Source: Thiotrichaceae bacterium (lineage in GTDB: Bacteria > Pseudomonadota > Gammaproteobacteria > Thiotrichales > Thiotrichaceae). Taken from it: a stretch of 47,367 bases of DNA. Shown here one piece after another: positions 2,253-46,088 of the stretch. The DNA is taken from NCBI GenBank assembly GCA_026989145.1, contig JALSJU010000096.1, positions 1-47,367 of the forward strand, in the 5' to 3' direction. The notes under the pieces are model-generated. The model worked only from the letters and a program-made list of their open reading frames with translations. It did no database searches and was not told the origin of the DNA. The translations under genes were made by a program, and so were the position numbers. Within the stretch, counting starts at the first letter, position 1. Each line of letters starts with the position of its first letter.

Positions 2253-2263
2253 GTTGTCCTCAT

Positions 2264-2294: not shown

Positions 2295-2331
2295 TGAAAT
2301 AATTAAACTATTTAAAATAATTGTCGAGGTG
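2281..2331 (+). promoter_or_regulatory. parDE promoter and ribosome binding site
   Basis: A consensus -35 box TTGACA (2281-2286) is followed after 17 bp by TAAACT (2304-2309, 4 of 6 matches to the -10 consensus). The ribosome binding site GAGGTG (2326-2331) lies 6 bases before the parD ATG. Confidence 0.65.
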
Positions 2332-2337
2332 TAAACC

Positions 2338-2592: not shown

Positions 2593-2595
2593 GCC

Positions 2596-2892
2596 ATGAT
2601 CGCTGTTTATAAAACACCCCAAGCCAAAATTGATCTATTGGATTGCTGGCTTTATATCGCAACTGAAAACAGCCCAAATACAGCAGATAAGGTACTTTTA
2701 AAAATAGAAAAGACCTTATCCATGCTTAGCAATAACCCCGATGCTGGCACGTCACGACCAGAACTAGGGAGAAACTTGCAAAGTTTTCCTACATCAGGCT
2801 ATACCTTGTTTTATGAGCATGATATTAAACAACTAACGTTAGTTAGAATGCTTCATGGGTCTATGGATGTTGGGTTGCATCTTAAGGATTAA
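2596..2892 (+). CDS. parE: ParE/RelE-superfamily toxin
   Basis: The 98-aa protein matches the ParE fold by its features: a short first strand (IAVYKTPQAKIDLLDCWLYIA), a helical hairpin with SPNTADKVLLKIEKTLSML, the PDAGTSRPELG turn, and the C-terminal strand pair ending LTLVRMLHG. ParE toxins poison DNA gyrase, while RelE relatives cleave mRNA; the pairing with ParD favours ParE. Its TAA stop and the cas7c TAA stop on the other strand share the palindrome TTAA (2889-2892), so the two genes meet tail to tail with no room for a terminator. The frame is intact, so the module is probably functional. Confidence 0.88.
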   Translation: MIAVYKTPQAKIDLLDCWLYIATENSPNTADKVLLKIEKTLSMLSNNPDAGTSRPELGRNLQSFPTSGYTLFYEHDIKQLTLVRMLHGSMDVGLHLKD

Positions 2893-3713: not shown

Positions 3714-3715
3714 TT

Positions 3716-6339: not shown

Positions 6340-8797
6340 AATAGTTCTCCATTTCTCCTGTTGGTTCTTCACTCAAACCAAACTCAAGATCGTAATACTC
6401 TGTTCGTAGATAGAGCACTTCCATCTCTTCTGGTTGAGCAGGATGAACCGCTCCACTTTCTTTTAATTTATCTAGCAAATACGGATATACATTGACGGTA
6501 AATTGTTGAGCTTCGCGTAATAATTTAATCCGTTTCGTAATGTCAGATACGGCGCACAAATCAGTAATAATCTCTTTACCTTTCTCGCCATAGGGAACAA
6601 CTATGCCCTGAGTCGGTGCATCTATGGTTCTGAATGCTTTAGCTGCCGACATAAATGCTTGTTTAAAATAGATATTTGGGTGTTTTTTATTTTCCCGTTT
6701 GTATTCGCCAACCGCATTGTTGTTTTGAGTAAGTAAATTCATCAAGCTGTCATCATGTCCAATATCTTTTGTAGTTAATGGGTAATCCATGTCTTGTTTT
6801 CGATCAAAAAAGTAATACTGGAAATATTGCTGCATGGCTTTTGGACCAATCAGATCATTGTCAAAATGCTGAGGGTTATCTGCATATTCAAGTAACATTC
6901 TTTCGGTGTTTTCTTTACCAATTTTAATACTCGGCAACATATCCAAATTTTCTTTACTTGGATTGACAATATAAACCTTCCCTATCTTCCGCTTACCATT
7001 TCTATTACAACGCCCAGCCGCTTGGGCGATAGAATCAAGCCCTGCGGTAAAGCGAATCACCGAACCAAAATCAACATCTACACCTGCTTCTATAAGCTGC
7101 GTACTGATACAAATAAGATATTCATCTGAATCTAAAGACCTTCTAAGCTCTTTGAGTATTTCTTTACGATGTGCAGGACACATATTGGTACTTAAATGCA
7201 TGACTTTGTATCTGCTGTTATCACGGCAATACTGATAAGTTTCTTGCGCGGCATTCTTTGTATTGACGATAACCAAACAACTATTACTCCCTTCTGTTTC
7301 CTCAATAGCTAGATCAGCTATTTCATCAAATGACCAGCCTCCCACCTTTGTCTCATTAATGACCTCTACACGCTTTAAGTCTTCAAATAGTTTCTGAGTG
7401 TCACTGACAATTTCATTTTGCTCTGTGAAAGTTAATGCACCTTTCTGCGGGTCGACTTTATTGAGTAAGGGCTGAGTAGCCGTGCATAACACCACTGAGC
7501 TTTTACAGCTATCAATTAGAAAGTTGATAGCATTACAAAACAGGTGTGTGCAGTTGATAGGAAGCGTTTGTATTTCATCAAAAATAATGACTGAATTAGC
7601 AAGCTGATGCATTCGTCTTACTCCCCGTGTACCCGACGAAAACAAGCTTTCTAAAAATTGAACCGAAGTCGTGTACACAATTGGAGCATCCCAGTTTTCT
7701 GAGAGGATTTTATTGTGATAGGTTTGGTTTTCTGGAGCGAGATTAGAATGATGCTCTAGCACTATATCGCCATCGGTGTCATTGAGCGTGTTTCTTGCTT
7801 CTTGTGCATTTTGATCAATAATAGAGGTGAAGGGAACAATATAAATAATACGATCTAGCTTATGCTTTTCAGCATGTCGTAGTGCAAAGCGCAAGCTTGC
7901 CAAGGTTTTACCGCCTCCTGTTGGTACAGATAATGTGAAGATTCCTTGTTTCCGTTCTGCTGCTGCTAAGCATTCATTTGATATTTGATGACGGATTTTA
8001 TTTACATCACTATCTACTTTAAAGCTAGACAATCTATTTTCTAGTCTCTCTAGCAACTGATTAAAGCTATGGTAACTATTGTTCTGCCGTTGCTTTGCGG
8101 TTTCAGGGCTTTCAAAATCAGCCGAATCTTGACGGTCTGCATCAATAAGACAGCTAAATAAGAAGCGGATAACAAGTCCTGAGTGAAATTGAAATAAGGC
8201 TGGGTTACTACTCTGTTTTGTCCCTATTTTTGTCAATACATCCTGAAAACTACTGATCAGTTCAGGATGTTCTAGCAACTCAACATAGTGTTTTTCAATT
8301 CCCACATCCATGTTTGCAATTGCTTCTTTTAGGTGTGTTTTATCATCTTTTTTTGCCATGCGCTTAGAGAAGCCATCTTCTCCTGTGCTTTTTTTATTTG
8401 AGGTAATATTATCAATCAGACCAGAGTGATGAGATGCAATACAGAGCGCTAATACTTGTGCAACAATATTTTCTACTTGCCCTCGCCCTGAAAGTTTTTG
8501 CCAAATTAATTGCGCCCCTGCACTTGAGTGATCTATCTTTCCTTTCATAGCCTTTGCATCAATATATTCATCCGCATCAGGGTCAATATTTCCTTGCGCT
8601 GAATTTATATAATCTTGAAATTGACGGCTGTACTTTCCAAAGTCATGCAGTAAACCAATCAGCTCACCACTCTTTTTCAAGTTTATTTTTGAAGCATGTT
8701 GTTTTGATAAGTTAGAAACACCCTTGAGGTGCGATTCTAAAGATTGACATCTTTTATCAAATTCTCTTTGCCGCGCTATAAATTTATCATCTCTCAT
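6332..8797 (-). CDS. cas3: Cas3 nuclease-helicase (type I-C)
   Basis: Cas3 unwinds and degrades the target DNA recruited by Cascade. About 821 aa: an N-terminal HD nuclease (LLHDFGKYSRQF with H51-D52, and IASHHSGL), then an SF2 helicase with Walker A SVPTGGGKT (about 291), DEIQ in IIFDEIQTLP, and the motif VI region QAAGRCNRNGKR. Its length is normal for a single-chain I-C Cas3. The ATG at 8797 is chosen because the protein then begins just before the HD domain; a TTG at 8830 has no ribosome binding site. It heads the interference half of the cas operon. Confidence 0.94.
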   Translation of the reverse strand: MRDDKFIARQREFDKRCQSLESHLKGVSNLSKQHASKINLKKSGELIGLLHDFGKYSRQFQDYINSAQGNIDPDADEYIDAKAMKGKIDHSSAGAQLIWQKLSGRGQVENIVAQVLALCIASHHSGLIDNITSNKKSTGEDGFSKRMAKKDDKTHLKEAIANMDVGIEKHYVELLEHPELISSFQDVLTKIGTKQSSNPALFQFHSGLVIRFLFSCLIDADRQDSADFESPETAKQRQNNSYHSFNQLLERLENRLSSFKVDSDVNKIRHQISNECLAAAERKQGIFTLSVPTGGGKTLASLRFALRHAEKHKLDRIIYIVPFTSIIDQNAQEARNTLNDTDGDIVLEHHSNLAPENQTYHNKILSENWDAPIVYTTSVQFLESLFSSGTRGVRRMHQLANSVIIFDEIQTLPINCTHLFCNAINFLIDSCKSSVVLCTATQPLLNKVDPQKGALTFTEQNEIVSDTQKLFEDLKRVEVINETKVGGWSFDEIADLAIEETEGSNSCLVIVNTKNAAQETYQYCRDNSRYKVMHLSTNMCPAHRKEILKELRRSLDSDEYLICISTQLIEAGVDVDFGSVIRFTAGLDSIAQAAGRCNRNGKRKIGKVYIVNPSKENLDMLPSIKIGKENTERMLLEYADNPQHFDNDLIGPKAMQQYFQYYFFDRKQDMDYPLTTKDIGHDDSLMNLLTQNNNAVGEYKRENKKHPNIYFKQAFMSAAKAFRTIDAPTQGIVVPYGEKGKEIITDLCAVSDITKRIKLLREAQQFTVNVYPYLLDKLKESGAVHPAQPEEMEVLYLRTEYYDLEFGLSEEPTGEMENYCV

Positions 8798-8856
8798 AAG
8801 TACCACTACCCTAACCGAAAAATAAACCAATTTAAACCATTAATAGATTCAACCTA

Positions 8857-24368: not shown

Positions 24369-26138
24369 TTAGCCAGGTTTCTCCCCCGCTTTAAACGGCA
24401 AGTATTGTGCCTTCCAGGCATTGTCTTCAATAAATTTTTCCATATTAAGTGACGCTATTCCTTGCCTACTTGCAGTCCCCTCTTTTATCGCTAACTCTAA
24501 TACGCGTTTAGTAATGAACATGCTAACAGACTGCAAATCAGAGATAGGCGGGTAAATCTGGCTTTTTTGCTTTGCGTTATGAATATAGTATTTTTCAGTA
24601 TACTCAGCCAACGCATAAGCAGACTCAATAATCATAGAATCAGTTATCTTGGTACATTCGCCCAACACACTGGCAAAACCTAAACCGGGGAAAATAAATG
24701 CATTATTACCTTGCCCAATTTTAAAACACTTTCCATCCATAATCACATCAGCGAATGGACTGCCTGATGCCACAATCGCATTACCTGTGCCAGCATTAGC
24801 ACACCATTGGTAGATATCTTCGGGAACAGCTTCTACATTTGAGGTGGGATTAGAAAGAGGAAAAATTATAGGCAGATTATTGTTTTTGGCCATCTCCTCA
24901 ATAACATTTTGGGTAAATAATCCAGAAACACCGGTTAGTCCCAATAAAATAGTCGGCTTAGCTTGATTGATAACCTCCATGAGTGATGGAACCTTACCTT
25001 CAACCTCCCAGTTTTCGTAACTTTCAGGAAACTGCATAATCGGTTCTTTGTACTCATCAGGACAAATACCTTCAATAACAAGACCAAACTCATCTAGAAT
25101 AAACATTTGCTTGCGTGCTTGTTCTCGCGTGAGCCCTTCACGCACCAACCCATCTTGAATAAGTTTTGCGACACCAACACCACCCGCTCCCGCGCCAACG
25201 ACAACTATTCGTTGCTCAACTAAAGGCTCCCCTTTAATTTTACAAGCACTCAAAAGACCTGATAATACGACAGCTCCGGTGCCTTGGATATCATCATTGA
25301 AACTTGCTAGTTTATCCTTGTATCGCTCTAAAACGGTAAAAGCAACATCTTTTGCAAAATCTTCCCATTGAATAATAGCTTTTGGCCAACGTTTTTTTAC
25401 CGCATCTACAAATTGATCGATAATCTTGAAATACGCATCACCAGTAAGGCGTTTCTCATGCTCCCCAAGATACCCCTCATCTTCAAGTAACTCTTGTCTA
25501 TCGGTACCCACGTCAAGGTTAACAGCCAATGTATTATAAGGGCTTAACCCACCCCCAGCAGTGTACAGTGCAAGTTTACCGATACTAATCGCTAGGCCAC
25601 CATGACCTTGGTCACCAATACCTAAGATTGCTGATGAGTCTGTTGCAACAATCATACGAACATCATTCCAAGGGTAGTTACCAACAATTGAATCTGCTCT
25701 GCAAATATTATTGGCTGTAAATGTTAAACCACGAGGTGAACGATAGAGCGAACTGTATTGCTGAACAGCTTTACCGACTGTAGGCGTATAAATAATAGGC
25801 ATCATCTCCTCTAAGTATTTGGAGATAAGTGCGTAAAACAATACCTCGTTACGCTCTTGAACTGCTCGTAAAAACTGATATTTAGCAATGTCAGATGCTT
25901 GACTGGTAAAGCCGACATAGAGTCTATTAACTTGATCTTTTAGCTTGACCACAACAGGAGGGAGAAGTCCTTCGAAGCCAAATTCAATACGTTCTTCCTC
26001 TGTAAAAGCAGTTCCTTTATTTAACGCTGTTAAGCGTAGTATTTCGATACCCCGTGAGTATATTTCAAGGTATTTTTGTTTATTATCATCTACTTTAAGA
26101 TCAAAAAAAGGGCTTAGAGTTGGCGTTCGATAAGTCAT
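24369..26138 (-). CDS. maeA: NAD-dependent malic enzyme
   Basis: It oxidatively decarboxylates malate to pyruvate. The 589-aa protein (the large malic enzyme subgroup of about 560 aa) has the catalytic IYTPTVGKAVQQYS, the NDDIQGTGAVVLSGL divalent-metal region, and the dinucleotide-binding IVVVGAGAGGVGVAKLI. The long-form architecture supports the SfcA/MaeA type; NAD rather than NADP preference is inferred from the subgroup. The start is ATG at 26138 with no strong ribosome binding site. It is transcribed alone. Confidence 0.92.
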   Translation of the reverse strand: MTYRTPTLSPFFDLKVDDNKQKYLEIYSRGIEILRLTALNKGTAFTEEERIEFGFEGLLPPVVVKLKDQVNRLYVGFTSQASDIAKYQFLRAVQERNEVLFYALISKYLEEMMPIIYTPTVGKAVQQYSSLYRSPRGLTFTANNICRADSIVGNYPWNDVRMIVATDSSAILGIGDQGHGGLAISIGKLALYTAGGGLSPYNTLAVNLDVGTDRQELLEDEGYLGEHEKRLTGDAYFKIIDQFVDAVKKRWPKAIIQWEDFAKDVAFTVLERYKDKLASFNDDIQGTGAVVLSGLLSACKIKGEPLVEQRIVVVGAGAGGVGVAKLIQDGLVREGLTREQARKQMFILDEFGLVIEGICPDEYKEPIMQFPESYENWEVEGKVPSLMEVINQAKPTILLGLTGVSGLFTQNVIEEMAKNNNLPIIFPLSNPTSNVEAVPEDIYQWCANAGTGNAIVASGSPFADVIMDGKCFKIGQGNNAFIFPGLGFASVLGECTKITDSMIIESAYALAEYTEKYYIHNAKQKSQIYPPISDLQSVSMFITKRVLELAIKEGTASRQGIASLNMEKFIEDNAWKAQYLPFKAGEKPG

Positions 26139-26238: not shown

Positions 26239-26261
26239 GGGGTTTGATTCTTCCCCCCCCC
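26239..26261. repeat. Poly-G/poly-C hairpin with a C9 tract between maeA and trmL
   Basis: GGGGG (at about 26238-26242) faces a run of nine C (26253-26261) across a short spacer in the divergent maeA/trmL region. The C9 run is long enough for slippage. It lies roughly 100 bp upstream of each start and may affect promoter spacing; this is inference. Confidence 0.4.
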
Positions 26262-26380: not shown

Positions 26381-26845
26381 ATGTTTGAAATAGCCCTCTA
26401 CGAACCTGAAATACCGCCCAACACGGGTAATATTATGCGCTTATGTGCCAATACTGGCTGTCGTTTACATTTAATTCACCCTTTAGGTTTTAATCTGGAT
26501 GAAAAAAGTTTACGCCGTGCAGGCTTAGATTATCGGGATGCGGCGACAATTCACGAATATGACAACTTTGAGGCATTTAATGCTGCAATGAAAAATAAGA
26601 ACCTCTTCGCCTTAACCACTAAAGGATCAACAAACTACACTGAAATAAGTTTTAAGCAAGGTGATGTTTTGCTGTTTGGACCAGAAACGCGTGGTTTACC
26701 TGCTGAGGTTTTAGAGACGATTACTACACAAAATAAATTACGCTTACCAATGCTAGAAGATAGCCGCAGCCTCAATCTATCTAACACCGTCGCCATCGTC
26801 AGTTACGAAGCGTTACGCCAACAAAACTTTGCAGGCCTAGCTTAA
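26381..26845 (+). CDS. trmL: tRNA (cytidine/uridine-2'-O-)-methyltransferase TrmL
   Basis: A SPOUT-fold enzyme that 2'-O-methylates the wobble base 34 of two leucine tRNAs. The 154-aa protein has [25 protein letters not shown] at its start, [11 protein letters not shown] in the middle, and [19 protein letters not shown], which forms the trefoil knot SAM site. The length is standard. ribF starts 3 bases after its stop. Confidence 0.94.
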
Positions 26846-29787: not shown

Positions 29788-30769
29788 GCGCCGTATTGTA
29801 CCTTTTTTCTTTATTATTATTCTATGTCTACTCGGCTTGTTTTTTATTTCGCAAAACCGAGGAGATTCACCTGAAAAAGGTTCCCCGCAGACATCAGATA
29901 AACTACAGGTTCTTAGTACGATTAAACCGATTCAAGCCTTAGTTTTAGCCATCGCAGGCGACCACGTTGAAAGCGCTCAACTTATCCCTGATTACGCCTC
30001 ACCTCATACCTATAGTTTTAAGCCCTCCGATATTTCACGCATAAAACAAGCGGATGTGATTTTTAGAATTGATGAAAACTTTGAGCGTTTGCTTAATCAT
30101 GCCTTTGATAATAAGTTAGCTAACACAGATATTATTTCTTTGGCAGATGATAAAAATATTCAGCTTTTAAATCATGTGGGTAAGCGGAATCATGGCGCTG
30201 CTAACACCGTAAAACCTAAATCCAAAAATGAACAACATAGCCACGATACGCACGATGAAAAAGATTTACATATCTGGACATCACCAAGAAATCTACAAAT
30301 ATTAGCGACTAATATTGCTACCACCCTGAGTAAATTAGACAGTAAAAACAAACAATTTTATGCAAGCAATCTCGCACATTTTAATCAACAACTCACCCAA
30401 CTAAAAAAAACAATTCAAGCTGAGTTAGCACCTGTAAAAACACAGCCCTATATTGTTTTTCACAACTCATGGCAGTACTTCGCAGAACAGTTTGGTTTAC
30501 AAAAACCAGTCATTGTTGATTTTCATGAGGTGGTTTCGGCGGGTAGTAAAAGCATTAACCGTATTCGCAAAAAAATTCGTAATGCAAACATCCGTTGTGT
30601 AATAAGTAGCCCAGGCGTAAAGGTTGAGCGGATTAAAGCAATTACTGAAGGGACTTTAGTCAACATTGAAACCATTGATATTTTAGGGGCTAACGTAGCC
30701 CTTAATAAAAATACCGTGTTTACGATACTGCAAAAAACAGGACAGAAGATAGCCCGTTGTTTGCACTAG
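29786..30769 (+). CDS. znuA: Zinc ABC transporter substrate-binding protein ZnuA
   Basis: Periplasmic zinc-binding protein of about 327 aa with an uncleaved or cleaved N-terminal hydrophobic segment (IVPFFFIIILCLLGLFF). Zinc ligands are suggested by His in YASPHTYSF, the His/Asp-rich loop around EQHSHDTHDEKDLHIW, and His in IVFHNSWQYFAEQFGL. The start at 29786 has AAGGGA about 8 bases upstream; an in-frame ATG at 29699 would run through znuC and lacks a leader. znuA is divergent from znuCB with overlapping start codons, so both promoters must lie inside the opposite coding region. Confidence 0.9.
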   Translation: MRRIVPFFFIIILCLLGLFFISQNRGDSPEKGSPQTSDKLQVLSTIKPIQALVLAIAGDHVESAQLIPDYASPHTYSFKPSDISRIKQADVIFRIDENFERLLNHAFDNKLANTDIISLADDKNIQLLNHVGKRNHGAANTVKPKSKNEQHSHDTHDEKDLHIWTSPRNLQILATNIATTLSKLDSKNKQFYASNLAHFNQQLTQLKKTIQAELAPVKTQPYIVFHNSWQYFAEQFGLQKPVIVDFHEVVSAGSKSINRIRKKIRNANIRCVISSPGVKVERIKAITEGTLVNIETIDILGANVALNKNTVFTILQKTGQKIARCLH

Positions 30770-30911
30770 GAGCTTGTCCGAGAACTAGAAACCTACTGCA
30801 AATTCCACAATCATCATAATTTGAGCTTATTGAAAACGGTAAAAAGTTGCCTCACCATTTGATATAACTGAATAAGTCAAAATTCAAGAGCGCCTTCATG
30901 CAGTATGCGGG

Positions 30912-32816: not shown

Positions 32817-34400
32817 ATGCGAATTTTTCTCATCATAATTTTAGCTACACTAACTTACCCAAATATTCTCGCTGCAAAACCTTGGCTAGAACCTGGCGAC
32901 ATGCGATTACGCCACAACTTACAGGTTTTATCCGATGCTGGCTATTTAAAATCTCCCCTCACCACATGGCCACTGGCTAGCGAAGATATTGATGATTTAC
33001 TCAGGCAGCCCGTCGCACGTGAAGTGTTAAAACCTGCCGTAAAAGCCGCATTAAAATACGTTAACTCAATTGTCAAGAAAAAAACCAACTACACAAATTT
33101 AAGCGTGGGCGGAAAGATCCACAGCAAAGCACTGTTAATTAGAGATTTTTCAAGTGACGGTCGTGAAAAATACCTCAACTGGGTGGCTGGCTCTTGGGGC
33201 AAGAAAAATATTGATGCGCGACTTAAAATAACTGCCGCAAGACAGGCGCGAATCCAACGCTATTTATTTTCTGATCATAACCGTAATGAAGCAACTAGTA
33301 CTGCCGATGATAATTTTGCTGAAATTATTAATACCAACTCCAATGTTATCCACCCCAATGACTCCCCTATTCGACTTGATGAGTCATACCTCTCAGGTGA
33401 ACTAGGCAACTGGAAAATTACCGCAGGCACGCAATCCCGTTGGTGGGGGCCTGCCTGGGATGGCTCTTTTATACTCTCCAATAATGCCCGCCCTATTCCT
33501 GCTATTTCACTACAAAACATTCATTCTAAAGCCTTTGAAAGCAAATTATTCAACTGGATTGGACCAAACAACTTTCATATGTTTGTAGGCTTACTTGAAA
33601 AAGACAGATATGTATCCAAGCCCAAACTCATAGGCTTTCGCTATAACTTTAAGCCAAAAATCTTTAAAGATTTCGAGGTTGGTTTAAGCCGCACTTTAGT
33701 TTGGGGCGGCAAAGGCAGTAATGAAAGCCTCTCGGCCCTAACCAAATCGCTCTTTGGTATTAACAAAAACAACTACGGTGACCGGCTCCTCGGTGACAAC
33801 CTTGCGCAAATCGACATGCGCTGGAAGTTACCGCTAAAAAACAGCAATGAATCCTACGCTTTATACGGCCAATATTTAGCCGAAGATACCGGCGACTCTA
33901 TTTTTGGTGGCAATGAAACCTTACAACTAGGCGCATCGGTCACAGGTTACTCAAAAACACTCCAAGGCAGTTGGCGCGGCTACGCAGAATGGGTTGATAC
34001 CAGCTCCGGCATATTTGCAGGAGAAGACAGAAACAACACCACCTACAACCACGACTTCTACTTAGACGGCTACCGCCACCTCGGCACATCAATGGGATAC
34101 GGTATAGACTCAGATAGCACCATGGTGAGCCTAGGAGGTATATTATCTAAAGACAACGGTGACTTCTGGCGAACATGGGTGAAAATTACAGAACTTGATT
34201 TATTAAGAACCCAAGATGGACTCAACCCCATTGCCGACCCCGATGGCAAAAAATGGTCAGCCATTGGCCTAAGCTTGGACAGTCAATTTAATAAACAAAT
34301 ACATTTCAACCTAGGCACTCAATTAATTAGCGAAAATCCGCTAAAAAGCAAACGTAAAACATCGTTAGGAATTTCTACTGGGCTTAAGTATCAGTTTTAA
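32817..34400 (+). CDS. wzi: Capsule assembly Wzi-family outer-membrane protein
   Basis: A 527-aa protein with a signal peptide (about 1-20, IIILATLTYPNILAA) and the Wzi family architecture: an N-terminal helical segment (GDMRLRHNLQVLSDAGYLKSPLTTWP), followed by a beta barrel rich in alternating aromatic strands with the family block AGTQSRWWGPAWDGSFILSNNARPIPA and ending in an aromatic residue (KYQF). Wzi anchors group 1 capsule to the outer surface. It begins the polysaccharide locus. An AAGGGG site precedes the ATG. Confidence 0.88.
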   Translation: MRIFLIIILATLTYPNILAAKPWLEPGDMRLRHNLQVLSDAGYLKSPLTTWPLASEDIDDLLRQPVAREVLKPAVKAALKYVNSIVKKKTNYTNLSVGGKIHSKALLIRDFSSDGREKYLNWVAGSWGKKNIDARLKITAARQARIQRYLFSDHNRNEATSTADDNFAEIINTNSNVIHPNDSPIRLDESYLSGELGNWKITAGTQSRWWGPAWDGSFILSNNARPIPAISLQNIHSKAFESKLFNWIGPNNFHMFVGLLEKDRYVSKPKLIGFRYNFKPKIFKDFEVGLSRTLVWGGKGSNESLSALTKSLFGINKNNYGDRLLGDNLAQIDMRWKLPLKNSNESYALYGQYLAEDTGDSIFGGNETLQLGASVTGYSKTLQGSWRGYAEWVDTSSGIFAGEDRNNTTYNHDFYLDGYRHLGTSMGYGIDSDSTMVSLGGILSKDNGDFWRTWVKITELDLLRTQDGLNPIADPDGKKWSAIGLSLDSQFNKQIHFNLGTQLISENPLKSKRKTSLGISTGLKYQF

Positions 34401-34637
34401 TCCTAATCCCCAGATAGAATCACGAATGAGAGTGCAAGACTTTGGTTTCATAGTTTTAGTTTGTACAGTATATTCGAAAAAATTCCGTTTCACCCGTAGG
34501 TTTAGTGAACTCTACCGCACACGGTTATGCTTAGTACCATCAGACATTCTTGTGATCATGTTCGTAAATCACTCAAAAAGCTTTGAAATGCTCAATGACG
34601 ATACTATTCAGATTCTTGCGTGGTATTATTTTTAAGT

Positions 34638-35624: not shown

Positions 35625-36564
35625 ACAAAATTCGATACAAGCTAGCCAACCTAAAAACCACCCCTTCTTTAAAAAAACCTTTCCTCAGTAAAAACAAATA
35701 TAAGGATAATCTACTCCCTTTAAAAGTAAGATAATTACAAAAACCTTGAATTAGCTGATAATCTTCTTCACCCACTGGATATTCTGAAAGCAATTTTTGT
35801 AATGCGATTTCACGATGATCATCCATAAAAGGCAATACTAATTCAGCTCTTTTTTTGAACCAGCTTTTACGGGTTTTTATAATTCTATTATTAGCGCTGT
35901 TATTATCATTATGAATGCGATAACCAACTAGCGGCTTTTGTATTGCCTTTCGTATACCAAAAATCTCATTAACAACTGCAAACCAATAATCGTGATACTT
36001 AAGCCCTTCAGGGAAAGGTAAGGCCTTATCCACCAATATTCGATTCATTAAAATCGTATTACCCATCACGCCACAATGCCCCAGTATATGACTTAATGAT
36101 TTTTCGTTCGGCAAAGTTAATCCTTTCTTTTCAAAAAAAGAGCCATGTATTTGCTCCCCCTTGTCATCAATATAAGACAAGTCAGAATGAACCAATACAG
36201 GAAGGTTCGGCTGTTTCTTTTCGAGATCCATTAAAGCCTCCATACAAAGTTGCAACTTATCTTTATGCCAAATATCATCTTGATCAGATAGAGCGATATA
36301 AGCCGCTGAAGCGCTATTCAGTGCTTGCTCAAAGTTACCTAAAAAGCCTAAATTATTAGTATTTTTATAAAGGACTATATTAGAAAATTTCTGACAAAAA
36401 ACACCCACAATATCACACGTTTGATCTGTAGAACGGTCATCGAAAACCAGAACTTCAAAATTCACATAACTTTGATCCAAAATAGATGTAAGTTGCTCTG
36501 TAATAAACCTCTCACCTTGATAGGTGCATACAATCACTTGAATTAATGGTTCTTCCTTAGTCAT
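35602..36564 (-). CDS. GT2 family glycosyltransferase
   Basis: A 320-aa GT-A-fold enzyme: VIVCTYQGERFITEQLTSILDQ, the nucleotide-binding VFDDRSTDQT, LSDQDDIWHKDKL with the DxD-like metal site, and the acceptor region KYHDYWFAVV. It resembles rhamnosyl- or galactosyltransferases of O-antigen and rhamnan synthesis; the sugar cannot be told. It overlaps the upstream GT2 gene by 8 bases (ATGACTAA), so the two are coupled. Confidence 0.88.
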   Translation of the reverse strand: MTKEEPLIQVIVCTYQGERFITEQLTSILDQSYVNFEVLVFDDRSTDQTCDIVGVFCQKFSNIVLYKNTNNLGFLGNFEQALNSASAAYIALSDQDDIWHKDKLQLCMEALMDLEKKQPNLPVLVHSDLSYIDDKGEQIHGSFFEKKGLTLPNEKSLSHILGHCGVMGNTILMNRILVDKALPFPEGLKYHDYWFAVVNEIFGIRKAIQKPLVGYRIHNDNNSANNRIIKTRKSWFKKRAELVLPFMDDHREIALQKLLSEYPVGEEDYQLIQGFCNYLTFKGSRLSLYLFLLRKGFFKEGVVFRLASLYRILFTTRYDR

Positions 36565-38209
36565 GTTCTATTCTATCCAAGCCTAATGAGAAGTCTTCAC
36601 GTAATAAAGTAAGATTTGGATTATAAGCAGGATCAGAAAAAAGATGCTCTCCCCATTTTTTTACTAAATAATCCGACTCTCTTTTTAACTGCTTTTTTTG
36701 CTCTTTATTACGCTTTTTCCCACGTGATTTTGACTCATGATGAATCAACTCTGCATGGGGTGTAAAAAGATTTCGATAGCCCGCTTCACGCACCTTTAAG
36801 CAAAAATCAACATCATTGTATGCAATCTTTAGATTCTTATCATCAAAGCCCCCAACCTTATTAAAAATTGATTTTTTAACAAGTAAACAAGCAGCAGTTA
36901 CTGCCGACACATTATGCGTTACAACTAATCGGTTAAAGTAGCCTTTACTATTCCCCTCAAATCCTTTGTGCGCGTGAGAGGCATAACCTTTTAAACCTAA
37001 AATAACGCCTGCATGTTGAATCATCCCATCAGGGTAATATAACTTTGCTCCAACACAGCCAATCTCAGAACGTTGCGCATTTGAGGTCATTTCATGCAGC
37101 CAATCATCTTTAATGATTGAAATATCATTATTTAAAAAACAGATAAGCTCCCCTTTCGCCATCTTCACCGCTTGATTATTCATCTCAGAAAAATTAAAGT
37201 CATCCGCATAATGCATAACTAAAACTCTGGCATCATGCTCAAGGTCGGATAAATACTCTAACACTTCTAAATCACGACTATTATTATCTATAATAATAAC
37301 TTCAATATTCTTGTATGCCGTATCCTCAAGCACCCCCTCAACACACGGTTTCAACAAATCTAAGCTATCTTTAGTAGGGATGATAATACTAACTAATGGT
37401 ACTGGCTCAGCAAGGTTATATCGTCGTCTCAGTATTACCTCAGGCTCAATAGGCAAAAGAAAATGAAAAAGAACGTGTGGGATATGCAGAATTTGCTTGC
37501 CCGCTAAGCCCTTAGTAACACGCAAAGCCAGGTCATGGTAAGGCGAGTCAGACTCAGAATTAAACCCTCCCACATCATTAAAACAATCCTTTTGGTAAAC
37601 CACACCTTTTGAAAAATAATTATAATTATCAAGATAATCAGGATTCCAATCTGGTTTAAAGCAAGGGTTATGTCGTTCACCTCTTTCTAGATAATCCTCA
37701 TCAGTGTATATAATTTTAATAGCTGAATACTTACCCCCTTCAGCCGTATTACTCTCATCAATAATACGAGAAATAGATGGCATAAAAAATGGAGAGATTA
37801 AGTCACCCACGTCCAAAAAGGTAACCCAGTCAGACTGAATTGACCTTAGCGCATTATTAATACAAGAGTACTTATTGAGGGTCGCCAATTTTTCTTCATA
37901 GATAACAGTTACAGCAGAAGCCTGTACGCCTAAACTATCAAAGTTGATACCAATATCAGTAACAAGAATCAACTCCCAACTATTAATCTCTTGATTAACA
38001 ATAGAATCAATCGTTTGTTTTAATAATGAGATTGAAGCCTCTTCCACAAACAGGAGAAAGGAAATACAGAAATCCCCCCCCCCATTACCCACTCTCACAA
38101 ACGACTCGCCTTCTATAGACTTTATCCAGGCACTATAAGAAACATCTTTATTATTGCTTAAGCCTAATAATTGTTTAATTTTATTTTTAAAATACAATTG
38201 AATATCCAA
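36557..38209 (-). CDS. Tandem GT2 glycosyltransferase with in-frame poly-G tract
   Basis: A 550-aa protein with two GT-A domains: a degenerate first (about 47-260; SLLKQTIDSIVNQ, VTFLDVGD, IYTDEDYLE) and a complete second (about 270-520; VSIIIPTKDSLDLLKPCVEGVL, VIIIDNNSRD, FLNNDISII, the acceptor HHESKSRGK). It resembles large GT2 enzymes of O-antigen or exopolysaccharide synthesis. Codons 43-46 contain ten consecutive G (38074-38083 as C on the plus strand), just before the first domain. As sequenced the frame is open; a change of one G would truncate the protein at about residue 50. It is divergent from the giant gene at 38319. Confidence 0.87.
   Translation of the reverse strand: MDIQLYFKNKIKQLLGLSNNKDVSYSAWIKSIEGESFVRVGNGGGDFCISFLLFVEEASISLLKQTIDSIVNQEINSWELILVTDIGINFDSLGVQASAVTVIYEEKLATLNKYSCINNALRSIQSDWVTFLDVGDLISPFFMPSISRIIDESNTAEGGKYSAIKIIYTDEDYLERGERHNPCFKPDWNPDYLDNYNYFSKGVVYQKDCFNDVGGFNSESDSPYHDLALRVTKGLAGKQILHIPHVLFHFLLPIEPEVILRRRYNLAEPVPLVSIIIPTKDSLDLLKPCVEGVLEDTAYKNIEVIIIDNNSRDLEVLEYLSDLEHDARVLVMHYADDFNFSEMNNQAVKMAKGELICFLNNDISIIKDDWLHEMTSNAQRSEIGCVGAKLYYPDGMIQHAGVILGLKGYASHAHKGFEGNSKGYFNRLVVTHNVSAVTAACLLVKKSIFNKVGGFDDKNLKIAYNDVDFCLKVREAGYRNLFTPHAELIHHESKSRGKKRNKEQKKQLKRESDYLVKKWGEHLFSDPAYNPNLTLLREDFSLGLDRIEHD
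38074..38083 (-). repeat. G10 homopolymer inside a glycosyltransferase gene (candidate phase-variation tract)
   Basis: Ten G in a row on the coding strand spell part of Asn-Gly-Gly-Gly-Asp near the start of the GT2 gene. Runs of this length slip during replication, switching the gene on and off, as is well known for surface-glycan genes in several pathogens. Other runs in the locus are shorter (G7 at 44267-44273, G6 at 44901-44906). Confidence 0.75.
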
Positions 38210-38318
38210 TAACCAGATTAGAAAAGTTGAGTGATGAACTCATGATTTTATCATTAATAAGCAAGTGTAGGTGTGCTATCCTTTTCAAACACCTTGCGAG
38301 AGAAGTACTAGGAAGCCA

Positions 38319-41300
38319 ATGACACAAAAAACACTGACCCAACTATATGCATCACATACGGGAAAAGTATCCGATAAATGGAGTTCCTACCTTGTAGAGT
38401 ATGATCGCTTATTTAACCCTTATCGTCACAAGCCCATTAACCTACTTGAAATAGGCATTCAAAATGGCGGATCAATTGAAATATGGGCTAAATATTTTGA
38501 AAAAGCACAAACTATAATCGGCTGTGATATAAATCCTGATTGTGAATCTCTCCGATATGATGATCCTCGTATTTCTATCGTTGTAGGCGATGCTAATGCA
38601 ACAAAAACTTATCAAAAAATAACAAAAATAAATACAGGTTTTGATTTAATTATTGATGATGGTTCGCATACATCAGGTGATATAATCCAAACCTTCGATA
38701 AATACTTTCCACAAATAAAAGAAGATGGTTTATTCGTTGCAGAAGATTTACATTGTAGTTATTGGAAAAACTACGAAGGAGGCTTATTCAACCCTCATTC
38801 ATCCATTTCCTTTTTTAAATTACTTGCCGATATTATTAACCACGAGCACTGGGGAGTTGATAAAAAAACCCAACAATTAATCGCTGGCTTTAATAAAAAG
38901 TACCATACAACTCTAACGCCAGAATTACTAGAACAAGTACATTCCATCAAATTTATAAACTCTATTTGCGTGGTAAGAAAACAAGCAACAAATAAAAATA
39001 ATCTTGGCGAACGGTTTATTTCAGGCATGGATGAGTTTATTCAAGAAGGTATCATCTCGCTACATGGTTCAAAATCTTCTACTCCTCCCCAAACAGATAA
39101 TACTTGGTCCGCTAGAAAATACTCCCCTAGCGAGGAACTACCCATAAGACTAAAAGAACTAATTGAGCTAAAACAAAAAATAGAAGTTCAAGTAGACAAG
39201 GAAGAAAGTTTAAACTCTAGGATAGACGATCTAAAAAAAGAGTTGACAGCTTCAAAGAGTGAAATTGAAAAAAAGACACTGAGCTTTGAACAGGCCGAAG
39301 CACTTTCAAAAAGGCTATCTACCGAACTTGATTCGAAATCAGCTAAACTTGACAATGCTAATGCGAAAATTAATCAGCTATTAACGAAAGTTAATCACGC
39401 TGAAGAGATTTTAGAAGAAGTATTAAGTAATAATAATAAATATAAAAAATTAAGAAAAATTCCTAGTAAATTCAGTATTTCATACTTCTTAAATAAAGAA
39501 AAAAGAAGGTTAATTAAGGATAAGCAGGTTATTGCGAAATCTGGTTTATTTTCACCTGCCTACTATTTACTTCACAATTATGATGTATGGAAAGCTGATA
39601 CTAACCCGTTAAATCATTTTTGTAACTTTGGCTGGATCGAAGGACGCGAACCTAGCTCATCTTTTAATTGTGATAGTTATCTAAAGAAAAATAAAGATGT
39701 TGCTAATAGTAAAACTAATCCGTTAGTACACTATATCCGCTATGGAGAAAAAGAAAGAAGACAATTTTCTAGCCAAGCTGTATTCGATTCGAACCAAATC
39801 ATTCAATTTGCTTACCCTAAAAACCATACAAATAAAGCTCATAAATCATCTATTATTAAAATTTTATACGATATAAAAGATGACAATGAATTGTTAAATG
39901 ATGAGGTGATAAAACTATCAAAACAAATTATAAAAACTAGAGCCTTAAAAATTTCAGTTATTATGCCAACATGGGAAAGAGAGAATGTTATCGCTCTCGC
40001 CATTGACTCTGTTTTACAACAAAGCCACCTTCCTCATGAGCTCATTATTTCAGATGATGGAAGCGTCGATAACACAATAAAACTAATTAAGAATAAATAT
40101 AAAAAAGAAATTTCTACAGGACTTATTAAAATAATTTCAAATACACACAACGGTGTTAGTGCCACCCGAAATGCCGCTTTACAAGTTGCTACCGGCGATT
40201 TAATCGCTTACTTGGATAGTGACAATCAATGGAGAAAACACTACCTTTTGTTAATGATAGCCATCTTTAGTGAAGACGATGAAACGAACTGTGCATATTG
40301 TGCACTAGATATTCATAATAACAACTCAAATAAACGAAAAATTTTATTAACTGAATTTGACCGAAGAAGTCTGCTCACTGAGAACTTTATTGATCTAAAT
40401 GTTTTTATGCACCGGTCGTACCTATATACACAGTTTGGCGGTTTTGACACAACACTAAATCGTCTTGTTGACTGGGATTTAATTATCCGCTATACCAAAA
40501 ACTACCCCCCTGCTGTTGTTCCTTTTGTGGGTGTGGATTATTTTCTTGATAATAATAGTTTAAAGAATATTACGACCACTGTTAGCTTGGATGGTATTTT
40601 CTCTAAAATTTATCAAAAGAATTTTTCTGAGAGAGTGAATTTAGGGCTCGAAAAATTAAAGATTGCTTATGTAATATGGGACTTCCCTGCTTTATCACAG
40701 ACATTTGTTATGAATGAGCTAAGGTGGTTGGTACAGCAAGGCTTTGATGTAAAAGTCTATTATTCAACTGACCCAGAAAAAAGTGCAGAGCTTGATTTCA
40801 AAATCAAGTCATATCATGTCACTGATTCAAATCAATTAGCTGAGCTTTTAGTGGCACATGAGAGAAACCTATGCCACAGCCAGTTTGTATACCCAGCAGT
40901 CACATTGCTTACCTACCCTGCTGCAGTAAAAGTAGGCATACCCTTTACTTTTATGCCCCATGCTGTAGATTTATTTCATCACCTAAATAAAAAAAGAAAT
41001 AAAATTAGTGAGATAGTAAGTCACCCTTTATGTTTAAAAGTCTTTGTGTATGGGGATTTTCATAAGCAGTTCTTAATGGATCAAGGAGTTCCTGAAAAAA
41101 AAATAGGGTTTAATTTTCAAGCAGTTAATTTAACTGATTTTAACGTTTCAAAAACGCCTTCTAATAATAAAATAAATTCTCATAGCGAACAAAAAATACA
41201 GAGCGGCTTAGTTATAGCGCGATTCATTGAAAAAAAAGGAATAAAGTACTTAATCGAAGCTGCAAATCTATTAAGAAAGGAAAGTGTAGAATTTAATATC

Positions 41301-43034
41301 TACGGCTATGGCGAATTACAAAAAACATATGAAAAAAAAGTATCAAGGTTAAAGTTAAAAAATATTCACTTTAAAGGTGTTATTGAAAATTCAAAAGAGC
41401 TGTCAGAATCCTATAAAAAAGCAGACTTTTTGATTGTACCTAGCGTTATTGCTGAAAATGGAGATATGGACGGATTCCCAACCGTGATTTTAGAAGCAAT
41501 AGCTGCTGATTTACCTATTATCACAACTGACGTTTCAGCAATCCCTGATTATTTAACAAATGGTGTAGATGCTATTGTAGTACCTGCTAAAAATAAAAAA
41601 ACTTTAGCTGATGGAGTTACAAAACTCTTAGGAATGTCACCAGAACAAAAAAGCGCAATGGTCAAGCGCTCTCATAACTTCCTTCATAAAATGGTAGGGG
41701 TTCACAAGTCAATGAAAGTAATGTTAGATACTTGGGAAAACTATACTATTGACATTATTTTGGTAACATACAATACGTCAGAATACGATGATCAAAATGA
41801 AACCTTTGAAATTATTAGCCGCATTTTAAAACATACAACAACACCCTTCACTTTAACTATAATTGATAATAATAGTGATAATAAATTCTGGTCTAAACTA
41901 AGTAACAGATTTATAGGATACGAAAATATACGTATAATTCGAAAATATAATAATCAATATTGTGGGCCAGCATCAAATATTGCTCTTGAATTATGTAAAA
42001 GTGAGTTTGCAATTTATATTTGTAGTAAAGAAGGCTTTATTAATAAACACGGCTGGGAACGAACTTTAATAGATCATATGAGAGAGAACTCTGATAACGT
42101 GATGGCTGGCCATTACTCGCAAATGCCAAATTATATTTATGGTCGAGAATATATAAATCATCCAGAATTTTCAAAATTCCGTAACCCTGACTTTGCTAAG
42201 AATAACCCTAACAAAATCTTTAAACATGTTCAGGGTGGTGTTTATATTATTCAGAAAGCATTTATTAAAGAACATGGTGGCTTTAACCCAGCAACCCCTC
42301 ACAATGGCATGGATATAGAGATGTCCTACTATATTGAAAGCTTAGGGTATGAATTAGGTGAAATACCAGAGGTGGCTTCTATCACAGTTAAAACACTCCC
42401 TAAACTACCTGCTATTTTAAATGAAAATACGGTTATAGCTCACCCCTTTAGCATGAAAAACATAAATAACGACTTTGACTCACTAATAAAAACAAATGGT
42501 CACCGTTGTAGCATATGTGGTTGGAAAGGCAAACTATTTGAACAAGGTCAAAAATGCCCCGAATGCTATTCAACTGGCTTTGGAAGAAGTTTATTAAAAA
42601 TACTGTCCAACAATCATCATATTTATAGGAATGAAAAAGCCTTAATCTTAACAAGTGACCCTACTGTAAAAGAATTTACAACCCCCTTCTTTAACTCTTT
42701 ATTAGTTACTGATAACGAAGAAATCTTCAAGTCTACTCTTAGTATTTCAACAGCCAAGCTTGATTTAATTATCGTAGATTTTGATTGTATTAAAGAAAGT
42801 ACAAAATTATGGAAGCTAATGCTAACAAGCCTATCAGAAATTGGCGAAGTGATTTTTACTGATGCTTTATTTTTAGACGAATGCTCCATTGGAGCTAGCA
42901 AAAGTAGAAACACAAACATCAAGAATGCTTTCTCATCCAAACAGGACAACAATATAATAAAATACACAGATTTTACAAGCTATTGTATAGCCTATGATTG
43001 GAGAAGGTTTGGAGTGGTTCAACGAAATGCTTAA
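38319..43034 (+). CDS. Giant multidomain polysaccharide protein: methyltransferase, GT2, GT4, GT2-like, zinc-ribbon
   Basis: About 1571 aa. From this start: a class I methyltransferase (about 35-225; LLEIGIQNGGSIEIW, DFDLIIDDGSH); a coiled coil (about 280-375); two copies of an F-Y-NPL-HY-G-EGR module (about 405-490); a GT2 domain (about 543-760; ISVIMPTWERENVIALAIDSVLQQ, ISDDGS, YLDSDN); a GT4 domain (about 780-1135; FPALSQTFVMNEL, GLVIARFIEKKGI, FPTVILEAIA); a divergent GT2-like domain (about 1143-1350); a zinc ribbon (Cys 1397, 1400, 1413, 1416); and a C-terminal fragment like a degenerate methyltransferase. ATG 38319 has AGGA 5 bases upstream; an in-frame start at 38271 does not. The last 8 bases overlap the epimerase gene. 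It probably builds and caps a surface glycan. Confidence 0.85.
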   Translation: MTQKTLTQLYASHTGKVSDKWSSYLVEYDRLFNPYRHKPINLLEIGIQNGGSIEIWAKYFEKAQTIIGCDINPDCESLRYDDPRISIVVGDANATKTYQKITKINTGFDLIIDDGSHTSGDIIQTFDKYFPQIKEDGLFVAEDLHCSYWKNYEGGLFNPHSSISFFKLLADIINHEHWGVDKKTQQLIAGFNKKYHTTLTPELLEQVHSIKFINSICVVRKQATNKNNLGERFISGMDEFIQEGIISLHGSKSSTPPQTDNTWSARKYSPSEELPIRLKELIELKQKIEVQVDKEESLNSRIDDLKKELTASKSEIEKKTLSFEQAEALSKRLSTELDSKSAKLDNANAKINQLLTKVNHAEEILEEVLSNNNKYKKLRKIPSKFSISYFLNKEKRRLIKDKQVIAKSGLFSPAYYLLHNYDVWKADTNPLNHFCNFGWIEGREPSSSFNCDSYLKKNKDVANSKTNPLVHYIRYGEKERRQFSSQAVFDSNQIIQFAYPKNHTNKAHKSSIIKILYDIKDDNELLNDEVIKLSKQIIKTRALKISVIMPTWERENVIALAIDSVLQQSHLPHELIISDDGSVDNTIKLIKNKYKKEISTGLIKIISNTHNGVSATRNAALQVATGDLIAYLDSDNQWRKHYLLLMIAIFSEDDETNCAYCALDIHNNNSNKRKILLTEFDRRSLLTENFIDLNVFMHRSYLYTQFGGFDTTLNRLVDWDLIIRYTKNYPPAVVPFVGVDYFLDNNSLKNITTTVSLDGIFSKIYQKNFSERVNLGLEKLKIAYVIWDFPALSQTFVMNELRWLVQQGFDVKVYYSTDPEKSAELDFKIKSYHVTDSNQLAELLVAHERNLCHSQFVYPAVTLLTYPAAVKVGIPFTFMPHAVDLFHHLNKKRNKISEIVSHPLCLKVFVYGDFHKQFLMDQGVPEKKIGFNFQAVNLTDFNVSKTPSNNKINSHSEQKIQSGLVIARFIEKKGIKYLIEAANLLRKESVEFNIYGYGELQKTYEKKVSRLKLKNIHFKGVIENSKELSESYKKADFLIVPSVIAENGDMDGFPTVILEAIAADLPIITTDVSAIPDYLTNGVDAIVVPAKNKKTLADGVTKLLGMSPEQKSAMVKRSHNFLHKMVGVHKSMKVMLDTWENYTIDIILVTYNTSEYDDQNETFEIISRILKHTTTPFTLTIIDNNSDNKFWSKLSNRFIGYENIRIIRKYNNQYCGPASNIALELCKSEFAIYICSKEGFINKHGWERTLIDHMRENSDNVMAGHYSQMPNYIYGREYINHPEFSKFRNPDFAKNNPNKIFKHVQGGVYIIQKAFIKEHGGFNPATPHNGMDIEMSYYIESLGYELGEIPEVASITVKTLPKLPAILNENTVIAHPFSMKNINNDFDSLIKTNGHRCSICGWKGKLFEQGQKCPECYSTGFGRSLLKILSNNHHIYRNEKALILTSDPTVKEFTTPFFNSLLVTDNEEIFKSTLSISTAKLDLIIVDFDCIKESTKLWKLMLTSLSEIGEVIFTDALFLDECSIGASKSRNTNIKNAFSSKQDNNIIKYTDFTSYCIAYDWRRFGVVQRNA

Positions 43035-43989
43035 TACAAGCCCCACCTCCAAAACTTCTTCTTGCCTCATAGTTGGGGCTGGAGGATTTATTGGTTTTAA
43101 TTTATGCCTCGAACTCGTAAAAAAATATGGTACTGTTTTTGCTTGTGATACCTTTTTCTCAGAAAGTATTACCCTACGGTTGAGAGAGAAAAATATTGAA
43201 ATAATAGAAGGAGGTGTAGAAGGCTTTGTTCTATCATTTGAAAGGTATAAAAACATCCGAGATATATTTTATTTTGCAGGAAAATCAACACCTTCACTTT
43301 TAGAAAATGAAATGAGTAAAGGATATTTTTTTGACCAAGAAAACTTGGTTATGATGCTTGAATCTTGTAGTGAAATGCCTTGTCTCCATTCTTTTATTTA
43401 TGGGTCATCAGGAGGAACAGTCTACGGAGAGAATGACAATTTATGTAATGAAAGTGACATTTTAAAACCAATCTCAGCTTATGGCCTATCGAAACAAATA
43501 CAAGAAAGTTATATCAATTTTTATGCACGAAGATTTCATTTTTTAGCCAAAATAGCTAGAATATCTAACCCTTATGGTCGGGCACTTACTCATGGCACTA
43601 AACATTTACAGGGTGTTGTTGATACAACAATAAATAAAATAAAATACAATGAAATAATTGAAGTATGGGGTGACGGAAATGTAGTCAGAGACTATATTTT
43701 TATATTAGACCTAGTACAGGGCATTACTGCAATCTCAAAAAAAATAATACCTGCTGGTGTCTATAATATAGGAAGTGGTATAGGTCACTCAATAAATGAT
43801 ATTATCAAACTTTATAAAGGGATAGAACTCCAGTTTAAAGTCAAATATAAAGACTCAAGAAAGATAGATGTTCGCTCAAACATTTTAAATATTAATAAAA
43901 TTAAAAATTCTACAGGGTGGGTACCTACTTATGATTTAGAGACAGGAGTAAAAGAGTTAATCAATCAAGAGTTAATCAATCAAGATTAA
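43027..43989 (+). CDS. NAD-dependent epimerase/dehydratase (extended SDR)
   Basis: About 320 aa with the nucleotide-binding VGAGGFIGFNLCLELV near the N terminus, YGSSGGTVYGE, the catalytic SAYGLSKQ (Tyr-x3-Lys), NPYGR, and GVYNIGSGIGHSINDI. It is a nucleotide-sugar epimerase or dehydratase of the GalE/RfbB type; the substrate is unknown. The ATG at 43027 overlaps the preceding stop by 8 bases, with GGAG upstream; an in-frame ATG at 42994 is possible. The C terminus contains a short tandem duplication (ELINQ repeated). Confidence 0.87.
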   Translation: MLNTSPTSKTSSCLIVGAGGFIGFNLCLELVKKYGTVFACDTFFSESITLRLREKNIEIIEGGVEGFVLSFERYKNIRDIFYFAGKSTPSLLENEMSKGYFFDQENLVMMLESCSEMPCLHSFIYGSSGGTVYGENDNLCNESDILKPISAYGLSKQIQESYINFYARRFHFLAKIARISNPYGRALTHGTKHLQGVVDTTINKIKYNEIIEVWGDGNVVRDYIFILDLVQGITAISKKIIPAGVYNIGSGIGHSINDIIKLYKGIELQFKVKYKDSRKIDVRSNILNINKIKNSTGWVPTYDLETGVKELINQELINQD

Positions 43990-44768: not shown

Positions 44769-46088
44769 GTGTCAAATTTTATCGAAAATCTTTATAAAAA
44801 GTTTAATCTTAGAAGAAAAATTCAAGTTATTAACCGCAGTGGTTTATTTGATAATAATTTTTACCTTAGACTATATCCTGATACTAAAGAATTCACAGGC
44901 GGGGGGATTACCCATTATATTACTCATGGTGAAAAAGAAGGTAGGCAACCTAATTTATTTTTTTCTCCTCATTGGTATGCAAGTGTACACACCATATCAA
45001 GTGATGAAAGCCCTTTACTACATTATATTGAGCGCGGTGAATCAAAGGGTTTCCAACCTTGTCCTTGCTTTGACCCTATTTGGTATCATAAAAACTATAT
45101 GACCGATGGATGCAAACCATTAAAACATTTCCTTGATATTGGCTTACCAAAAAAACTCCTCCCAAATAAAAACTACATTTCAGATACTGACGATAACCGC
45201 CATGGGAATATTGCTGCTACCACGAAGATTGCGGTTGTAATTCATGTTTATTATTTAGAGATGCTTCCATCAATTCTATCCCGAATAACAACAGTGCCTT
45301 TAAAAAGTGATTTGTTTTTTACGGTACCTCCTACTATTGAAGGTAGTTTGGTAAAATCACTTAATTCTTTCGGCATCAAAAACTATGAAATTATTACTTA
45401 TACCAGTGGCGGTTATGATATAGCCCCATTTATACTGCTACTTTCTCATTTGCAGGATAAAAATTATGATTTACTTTGTAAAATACATACTAAAAAAGGG
45501 GACGGTGAACTCGGTGAATTTTGGTTTCAGCTTTTAATAGATTCTATATTTGGCTCTGAACATACAGTTAAAGAAATAATATCTAAATTTGAATCAGATA
45601 AAGACCTGGGGTTAGTGGGAGGTATCGAAGTATACAAATCCGCTCAAAAACTAATGTATGGTAACACCCCTTTTATAGAGAATATATTGTCTACAACTTC
45701 TATAAATCACGATTTAAATAAAGACTGGGGCTTTTTTGCAGGTACTATGTTTTGGGCAAAATTAGACATGTTTAAGCCTTTAATTGATAATAAAAGGTTA
45801 CATTACTTAATCCATTTAGAAAGCCATAATGAAAAAACAGGAGCAAGTGCCTCAATCTTTCATGCTATAGAAAGGTTTTTCGGCTTACTACCTCAATTAA
45901 CGAATATGAAAATAGCCTTTTCACATCCCACAAACTTAAAAAAAAGTAGGCATATTATTAAAACGCATTCTAGAGACAACCTACCAATATCTTCCGTGGC
46001 GATAAGTATGACTCTACAAAGTGAGCTTAAAATGCTAAATACCCTTAAATGTTATTACAAAGCAGAAAACAATAAGGAAGATAGATGA
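44769..46088 (+). CDS. Rhamnan synthesis F (RgpF)-like protein with N-terminal repeat modules
   Basis: A 439-aa protein. Residues about 22-135 hold two and a half copies of a module (SGLFDNNFYL...THYITHGEKEGRQP; FFSPHWY...PLLHYIERGESKGFQP; FDPIWYHKNY...PLKHFLDIG) also found in the giant protein at 38319. Residues about 150-420 match the RgpF family (IAVVIHVYYLEMLPSILSRI, TYTSGGYDIAPFI, LLCKIHTKKG, WGFFAGTMFWAKLDMFKPL, AIERFFGLLPQL). RgpF proteins work in rhamnose-glucose or O-antigen polymer assembly. The start is GTG at 44769. Confidence 0.83.
   Translation: MSNFIENLYKKFNLRRKIQVINRSGLFDNNFYLRLYPDTKEFTGGGITHYITHGEKEGRQPNLFFSPHWYASVHTISSDESPLLHYIERGESKGFQPCPCFDPIWYHKNYMTDGCKPLKHFLDIGLPKKLLPNKNYISDTDDNRHGNIAATTKIAVVIHVYYLEMLPSILSRITTVPLKSDLFFTVPPTIEGSLVKSLNSFGIKNYEIITYTSGGYDIAPFILLLSHLQDKNYDLLCKIHTKKGDGELGEFWFQLLIDSIFGSEHTVKEIISKFESDKDLGLVGGIEVYKSAQKLMYGNTPFIENILSTTSINHDLNKDWGFFAGTMFWAKLDMFKPLIDNKRLHYLIHLESHNEKTGASASIFHAIERFFGLLPQLTNMKIAFSHPTNLKKSRHIIKTHSRDNLPISSVAISMTLQSELKMLNTLKCYYKAENNKEDR

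Follow-up and report, generated by a model that had tools for sequence, protein, structure and literature searches.

The locus

The window (the whole 47,367-nucleotide stretch analysed here, from contig JALSJU010000096.1 of the Thiotrichaceae bacterium assembly GCA_026989145.1) contains a gene group that a preliminary description of this DNA had called a capsule locus, a view borne out by its capsule-type members (Wzi, Capsule_synth and RgpF). Within this group, ten C on the plus strand at 38074-38083 form a G10 run on the coding strand of the minus-strand glycosyltransferase ORF 38209..36557 (Table 1). The run begins exactly at codon 43 (GGG GGG GGG GAT). The gene is ON as assembled, with 550 open codons, and the in-frame G10 reported at the start of a glycosyltransferase gene is indeed present. 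The same description had the next GT2 gene overlapping this one by 8 bases, and we find that overlap, which reads ATGACTAA.

Table 1 Features of the capsule-type locus, with positions in the window
Feature	Position	Strand	Remarks
Wzi-like capsule assembly protein, 527 aa	32817..34400	+	82% aa identity to sister genome G004
Capsule_synth (PF05159) protein, 334 aa	34620..35624	+	Convergent with the GT2 gene, 3' ends overlap
GT2-family glycosyltransferase, 320 aa	35602..36564	-	Overlaps the tandem glycosyltransferase gene by 8 nt, 36557-36564
Tandem GT-A glycosyltransferase, 550 aa	36557..38209	-	Pfam GT2 on second domain, first domain from model
G10 tract	38083..38074	-	Codons 43-45 and first base of Asp46 of the tandem glycosyltransferase
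Methyltransferase / GT2 / GT4 multidomain protein, 1571 aa	38319..43034	+	Divergent from the tract-bearing gene
NAD-dependent epimerase/dehydratase	42994..43989	+	Same locus
RgpF-family protein	44769..46088	+	Same locus

From sequence comparison, the window genome (G000) is taken to share a genus with Cocleimonas sp. isolate 4-1410 (G007; NZ_CANLZW010000046.1), and the genus is taken as Cocleimonas. The nearest sister by DNA comparison is G004 (76-81% over its four longest matches), which at this locus carries zapA, wzi, one GT2 gene of 290 aa whose product has no match among the window proteins, and the multidomain gene. The window's Capsule_synth, GT2 and tandem glycosyltransferase genes are missing at the corresponding place in G004, and the best match to the tandem glycosyltransferase anywhere in that genome has 29% identity, over the second domain. 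In isolate 4-1410, homologues of all three genes lie together and in the same direction, on a different contig from the wzi homologue; the Capsule_synth homologue there has 695 aa, as against 334 aa in the window. Because it is absent in place from G004, and its homologue in isolate 4-1410 lies on another contig from wzi, the tract-bearing gene is part of an exchangeable set.

Two repeated elements lie nearby. A stretch at 34387-34533, just after wzi and at the border where the gene contents of G000 and G004 diverge, is repeated in several genomes of the genus. Repeats as borders of the cassette were considered and rejected: this stretch is on the Wzi side, but blastn against the window gave no copy at 38205-38325, and no copy at G004's gap was found among the matches listed. 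An element of ~81 nt at 30764-30847, which we take to be REP/BIME-like, has many copies in G000, G004, G001, G009 and other genomes, often as facing pairs ~5-25 nt apart.

The preliminary description had also mentioned a CRISPR defence, which holds in part: type I-C cas genes (cas2, cas1, cas4, cas7c, cas8c, cas5c and cas3, by PADLOC models) lie at 237-8830 of the window, but no CRISPR array was found at 1-21000, and the array perhaps lies beyond the contig start. A 304-aa ORF at 18741-19655 matches the PADLOC candidate model PDC-M72A (E 5.5e-27) and an ankyrin model, and is a possible further defence gene.

The tract precedes both predicted catalytic domains

Profile and fold both place the predicted activity of the tract-bearing gene product in the GT2 family with a GT-A fold: PF00535 (GT2) matches residues 274-452 (E 1.8e-23; Pfam), and an AlphaFold model built with 29 relatives has a mean pLDDT of 89.2. 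In the model, tract residues 43-46 fall in the loop between a helix (residues 25-39) and strand 1 of the first GT-A domain (residues 49-55), in agreement with the earlier placement of the tract before the first catalytic domain. As this strand comes after the tract, both GT-A domains would be lost through a frameshift at codon 43. Model confidence is lower around the tract (blocks of 61 and 72 at residues 31-50) and the linker varies in length and sequence among relatives, which makes this loop a place likely to tolerate glycines.

Foldseek returned two-domain polymerases as top matches (2z86, 2z87, 8vh7, 8vh8 and 8viw; E 1e-20 to 1e-16), with both domains aligned. These structures are Escherichia coli K4 chondroitin polymerase (K4CP; 2z86/2z87) and heparosan synthase (8vh7/8vh8/8viw), to which the window protein has 11-16% identity, a whole-chain TM of ~0.3 and an rmsd of 16-23; the two domains are alike, whereas their relative arrangement differs, and the likeness is one of predicted fold. 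The DxD-like metal motif of the first domain is DVGD (DxDD in 41 of 80 relatives) and the second-domain motif is NND, as in 72 of the 80.

Homology to Cocleimonas 4-1410 runs in frame on both sides of the tract, and Tyr25, upstream of it, is invariant in 30 aligned sequences and matched by Tyr in 72 of the 76 relatives (of 80) that have a residue there; the frame upstream of the tract is therefore coding. With ATG, GTG and TTG considered, the only possible in-frame start codons ahead of the N-terminal homology are the TTG at 38209 and that at 38197, so the exact start is uncertain between these two; two GTG codons (38098 and 38092) sit just before the tract.

In modelled alleles, tract lengths of 8, 9, 11 and 12 G ended the protein at 66, 62, 67 and 63 aa, respectively, and 13 G opened the frame again (551 aa). 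The repeat is placed as in simple-sequence-repeat phase variation, where one unit shifts the frame early (here at codon 43 of 550). A one-base slip had been expected to cut the protein at about residue 50; truncation stands, but residue 45 is the last one left unaltered and the stop falls at about 62-67.

The long run is private to this genome among the relatives compared

A first-order model of the window predicts 0.010 G/C runs of at least 10 in the window, where 1 is observed; applied to the 2.63-Mb genome, the same model predicts ~0.57 and 4 are observed, with lengths 10, 11, 10 and 11. Across 25 window genes, GGG accounts for 101 of 648 Gly codons (the tract's own three included), and three consecutive GGG codons occur in this tract alone, against 0.0098 expected. 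G10 thus exceeds the expectation from base composition, yet the genome has a general excess of long G runs. The second long run in the window is a C9 on the plus strand at 26253-26261, with GGGGG ten bases ahead of it, in the divergent intergenic stretch between a malic enzyme gene (24369-26138, minus strand) and a SpoU-methylase gene (26381-26845, plus strand).

We compared the best 80 of 98 relatives of the glycosyltransferase, 78 of which cover the interval homologous to residues 21-71 (51 residues). At this interval the longest G/C run is 2 in 8 relatives, 3 in 41, 4 in 23 and 5 in 6; the nearest relative, a Cocleimonas homologue of 55-56% identity, also has a run of at most 5 at the site. 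Over the homologous ORF (up to 600 codons), the longest run is at most 7 in all 80 of these relatives, and a whole-genome search found no run above 8 in 29 loci from other genomes. A search of viral contigs yielded no relative. None of the relatives fetched shares G10. Phase variation would be supported by a tract at this site whose length differed between related genomes, but a run above 5 was seen there in 0 of 78 relatives. The preliminary description had named a short tract in all relatives as an outcome that would refute it, and this is the outcome in all 78 that cover the site, a set drawn from other species.

Long G runs of the genus lie mostly outside genes

Runs of at least 10 are present in 11 of 12 genomes of the genus, with 4 in G000, 74 in ten others and none in G005. 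We called a position coding by a longest-ORF rule (at least 90 aa, stretch ends left open) and not by a gene finder, a rule that needs an ORF through the run and so favours in-frame runs. By this rule, 8 of the 74 runs in the other genomes are coding, as against 5834 of 7400 random positions in the same stretches (Fisher p ~2e-35). The remaining 66 lie outside called genes, 54 between two called genes and 12 at a stretch edge, where some sit at the very end of a contig and poly-G can be an artefact. Runs span 10-24 across the genus (for example G20 at L165, G16 at L202 and G24 at L200, the last near a contig start), and those between called genes are slightly more often convergent than random positions (17/54 versus 163/817, p 0.055).

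The 65 runs of at least 7 in G000 (recovered from 100 of 105 matches) show a coding share of 41/58 for lengths 7-8, 2/3 for 9 (a multicopper oxidase and a protein without a Pfam match) and 1/4 for at least 10. Inside this genome alone the drop with length is not significant (p 0.09); runs of 7-8 are somewhat less often coding than random positions (41/58 versus 84%, p 0.01). We infer that long runs arise often and are mostly removed from genes, or do not arise there.

By Pfam, the eight other coding runs of at least 10 fall in a response regulator, an APH-like phosphotransferase, a MarR-like regulator (L198, whose run opens the ORF and may lie outside the gene), a TPR protein, a LysE-type transporter, an ABC ATPase, a Dus protein and a 1000-aa stretch without a Pfam match, and none in a surface-glycan or glycosyltransferase gene. 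One glycosyltransferase among nine coding runs is no clear enrichment, and the coding long runs are rare survivors. With most runs of the genus extragenic and no surface-glycan gene among the eight coding cases, finding a long run is by itself a poor indication of an evolved switch.

All called coding runs of at least 10 in the genus, G10 included, lie in open frames (consensus ON), an outcome with a chance of (1/3)^8, or ~1.5e-4, under free slippage for the 8 runs that lie well within ORFs. If slippage were free and unselected, many runs should be out of frame; as it stands, the consensus pattern fits selection for ON or slow slippage, given that minor OFF variants are hidden in a consensus and that an OFF gene may escape detection when its part before the run is short. 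No convincing case of a gene broken at a run came out of two frame scans covering 81 runs. One scan gave one weak candidate and the other three, all rejected by eye: the three look like runs shortly before gene starts or a spurious frame, and the one lies on the strand opposite a response regulator. A further run (L176), listed in the first scan, sits inside an open frame of 49 and 98 codons that is not called a gene.

Mismatch repair genes

Mismatch repair genes were examined because their loss raises slippage. MutS domain V was detected in 9 of 12 genomes and not found in G000, G004 and G009, in each of which a full-length MutS query recovered fragments at contig ends (residues 6-240 in G000); MutS loss as a cause of slippage was accordingly rejected. 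Contigs C79 of G000 and C3 of G004 both end, at base 2, in the same mutS residue (240), and their sequences there are near-identical, with one difference in the first 130 bases; mutL was found in neither genome.

The MutL profile reached its cut-off in 7 of 12 genomes, with nothing in G000 and G005 and short weak matches in G002, G004 and G011; a 641-aa MutL query found nothing in any of these five genomes and a fragment in G009. In G010, mutL has the miaA (IPP-transferase) gene as its neighbour; G000 and G004 also have miaA, flanked by a GT4 gene and no mutL, but mutL does not adjoin miaA in the fetched flanks of G003, G006 and G007. Since the ten-contig genome G002 was without both mutL and miaA in these searches, the absence of MutL from G000 may be technical (an assembly gap). 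By eye, genomes with and without MutS or MutL show no clear difference in how many long runs they have.

Interpretation of the G10 tract

On balance, we lean towards reading G10 as mutation-prone and of recent origin, lying in an accessory gene for a surface-glycan glycosyltransferase and producing OFF cells from time to time. On the published precedents discussed below, the run probably slips at some rate: replication slippage would add or remove a G now and then, slipped alleles would encode stubs of 62-67 residues without either GT-A domain (OFF), and a second slip could restore the frame. OFF cells would also make less of the GT2 protein, as the ribosome would no longer reach the overlapping start, and the glycan may, as the preliminary description proposed, matter as a phage receptor. 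Its reading of the gene as probably phase-variable is supported in part. The site is more probably an accidental, mutation-prone one, tolerated by a dispensable accessory gene, than a long-maintained evolved phase switch, although an accidental site may now be useful to the cell.

It is possible, if rather doubtful, that the tract is an evolved contingency locus, kept by selection for a reversible ON/OFF surface glycan, for example under phage or host pressure. Its length, its N-terminal place before the first GT-A domain and the kind of gene would all fit; it is the sole run of at least 10 called coding in this genome (1 of 4), and the gene belongs to an exchangeable capsule cassette missing in place from the nearest sister genome. 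As far as the relevant passages of the two reports go, poly-G of similar length switches the capsule MeOPN transferases of Campylobacter jejuni (PMC8713573), and homopolymer runs of at least 8 are mostly variable in Neisseria meningitidis (PMC5084427). The failure to find MutL in this genome or in its sister G004 would, if true, raise slippage, but it may reflect an assembly gap, and part of MutS is encoded where a contig ends. Also against an evolved switch are the short runs in all 78 relatives covering the site and the lack of any group of coding tracts in surface-glycan genes of the genus.

In a broader scheme, the poly-G runs found across the genus, mostly extragenic and in some cases shortly before a gene start, would adjust expression through their length; here, in a lineage whose mismatch repair may be impaired, they would have spread to a capsule glycosyltransferase and there yielded heritable, reversible surface-glycan variation in a marine bacterium. 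We consider this improbable.

Homopolymers are a common place of sequencing error, and the tract length could be a consensus or assembly error, the true run being shorter or of another length. Five G runs of isolate 4-1410 are no more than 90 bases away from the end of a contig, and certain runs of other genomes stand at the very start of one (for example L175 and L200). The G10 tract, however, is 9 kb away from the closer end of its contig; with ten G a single frame of 550 codons is open, with conserved residues on both sides, which is not so with 8, 9, 11 or 12, and the same assembly has two other runs of 11 and one of 10. An error in length is quite improbable. Long homopolymers can also cause transcriptional slippage, but RNA polymerase slippage on G10, giving a mixed mRNA pool with full-length and truncated protein in every cell and no genetic switching, is the kind of explanation we hold to be very improbable, with no long run at the same place in relatives.

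Comparison with known systems

Poly-G switching of surface glycans is best known from host-associated pathogens and commensals, and G10 is a candidate further case. If its length varies in nature, such switching would extend to an environmental marine genus, and the question would open of whether glycan heterogeneity answers phage pressure beside type I-C CRISPR; if it does not vary, G10 would be an example of an accidental long run in a surface gene, in a genus whose runs are mostly extragenic. Our search of the open-access literature found no paper joining Cocleimonas or Thiotrichaceae with phase variation, and none joining phase variation, homopolymer, glycosyltransferase, metagenomics and marine.

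In the part of the C. jejuni report concerned with capsule transferases, N-terminal poly-G of 9 is on and of 10 off (PMC8713573). The genes cj1421, cj1422 and cj1426 resemble the one described here: they encode capsule transferases and have a poly-G tract of 9-10 in their N-terminal coding part. That study measured mixed tract lengths as well as effects on phage, whereas here a single assembly and other genes are concerned (PMC8713573). The same part reports phage resistance for strain NCTC11168 and states that phase variation alone does not explain the resistance of the strains studied (PMC8713573). Cocleimonas further differs from the C. jejuni capsule switch in that its long runs lie mostly outside genes.

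The Helicobacter canadensis poly-G genes are likewise similar in holding G9-G14 within genes, and the pertinent sections of that report give variable genes of these lengths with ranges from read data such as G8-11, as against one consensus here; those sections show no glycosyltransferase with a tract (PMC2823697). E. coli K96 kpsC offers another homopolymer frameshift in a capsule gene, described in an extract of its report as reversible (A7/A6); it differs in being poly-A, in another gene and shown experimentally (PMC13410964).

The criteria for phase variation set out in one passage of a further paper are genetic variation at one locus, reversibility in both directions without selection, and a minimal rate (~1 in 1e5, so that switching is detectable without selection), and there the C7 tract of N. 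meningitidis siaD is treated as accidental and mutation-prone, not as evolved phase variation (PMC11868660). The siaD tract, to the extent that this passage describes it, is a capsule-gene homopolymer, as G10 is, whose slippage costs the gene its expression; although C7 is shorter, it is the closest in spirit to our preferred reading of G10 as an accidental, mutation-prone run (PMC11868660).
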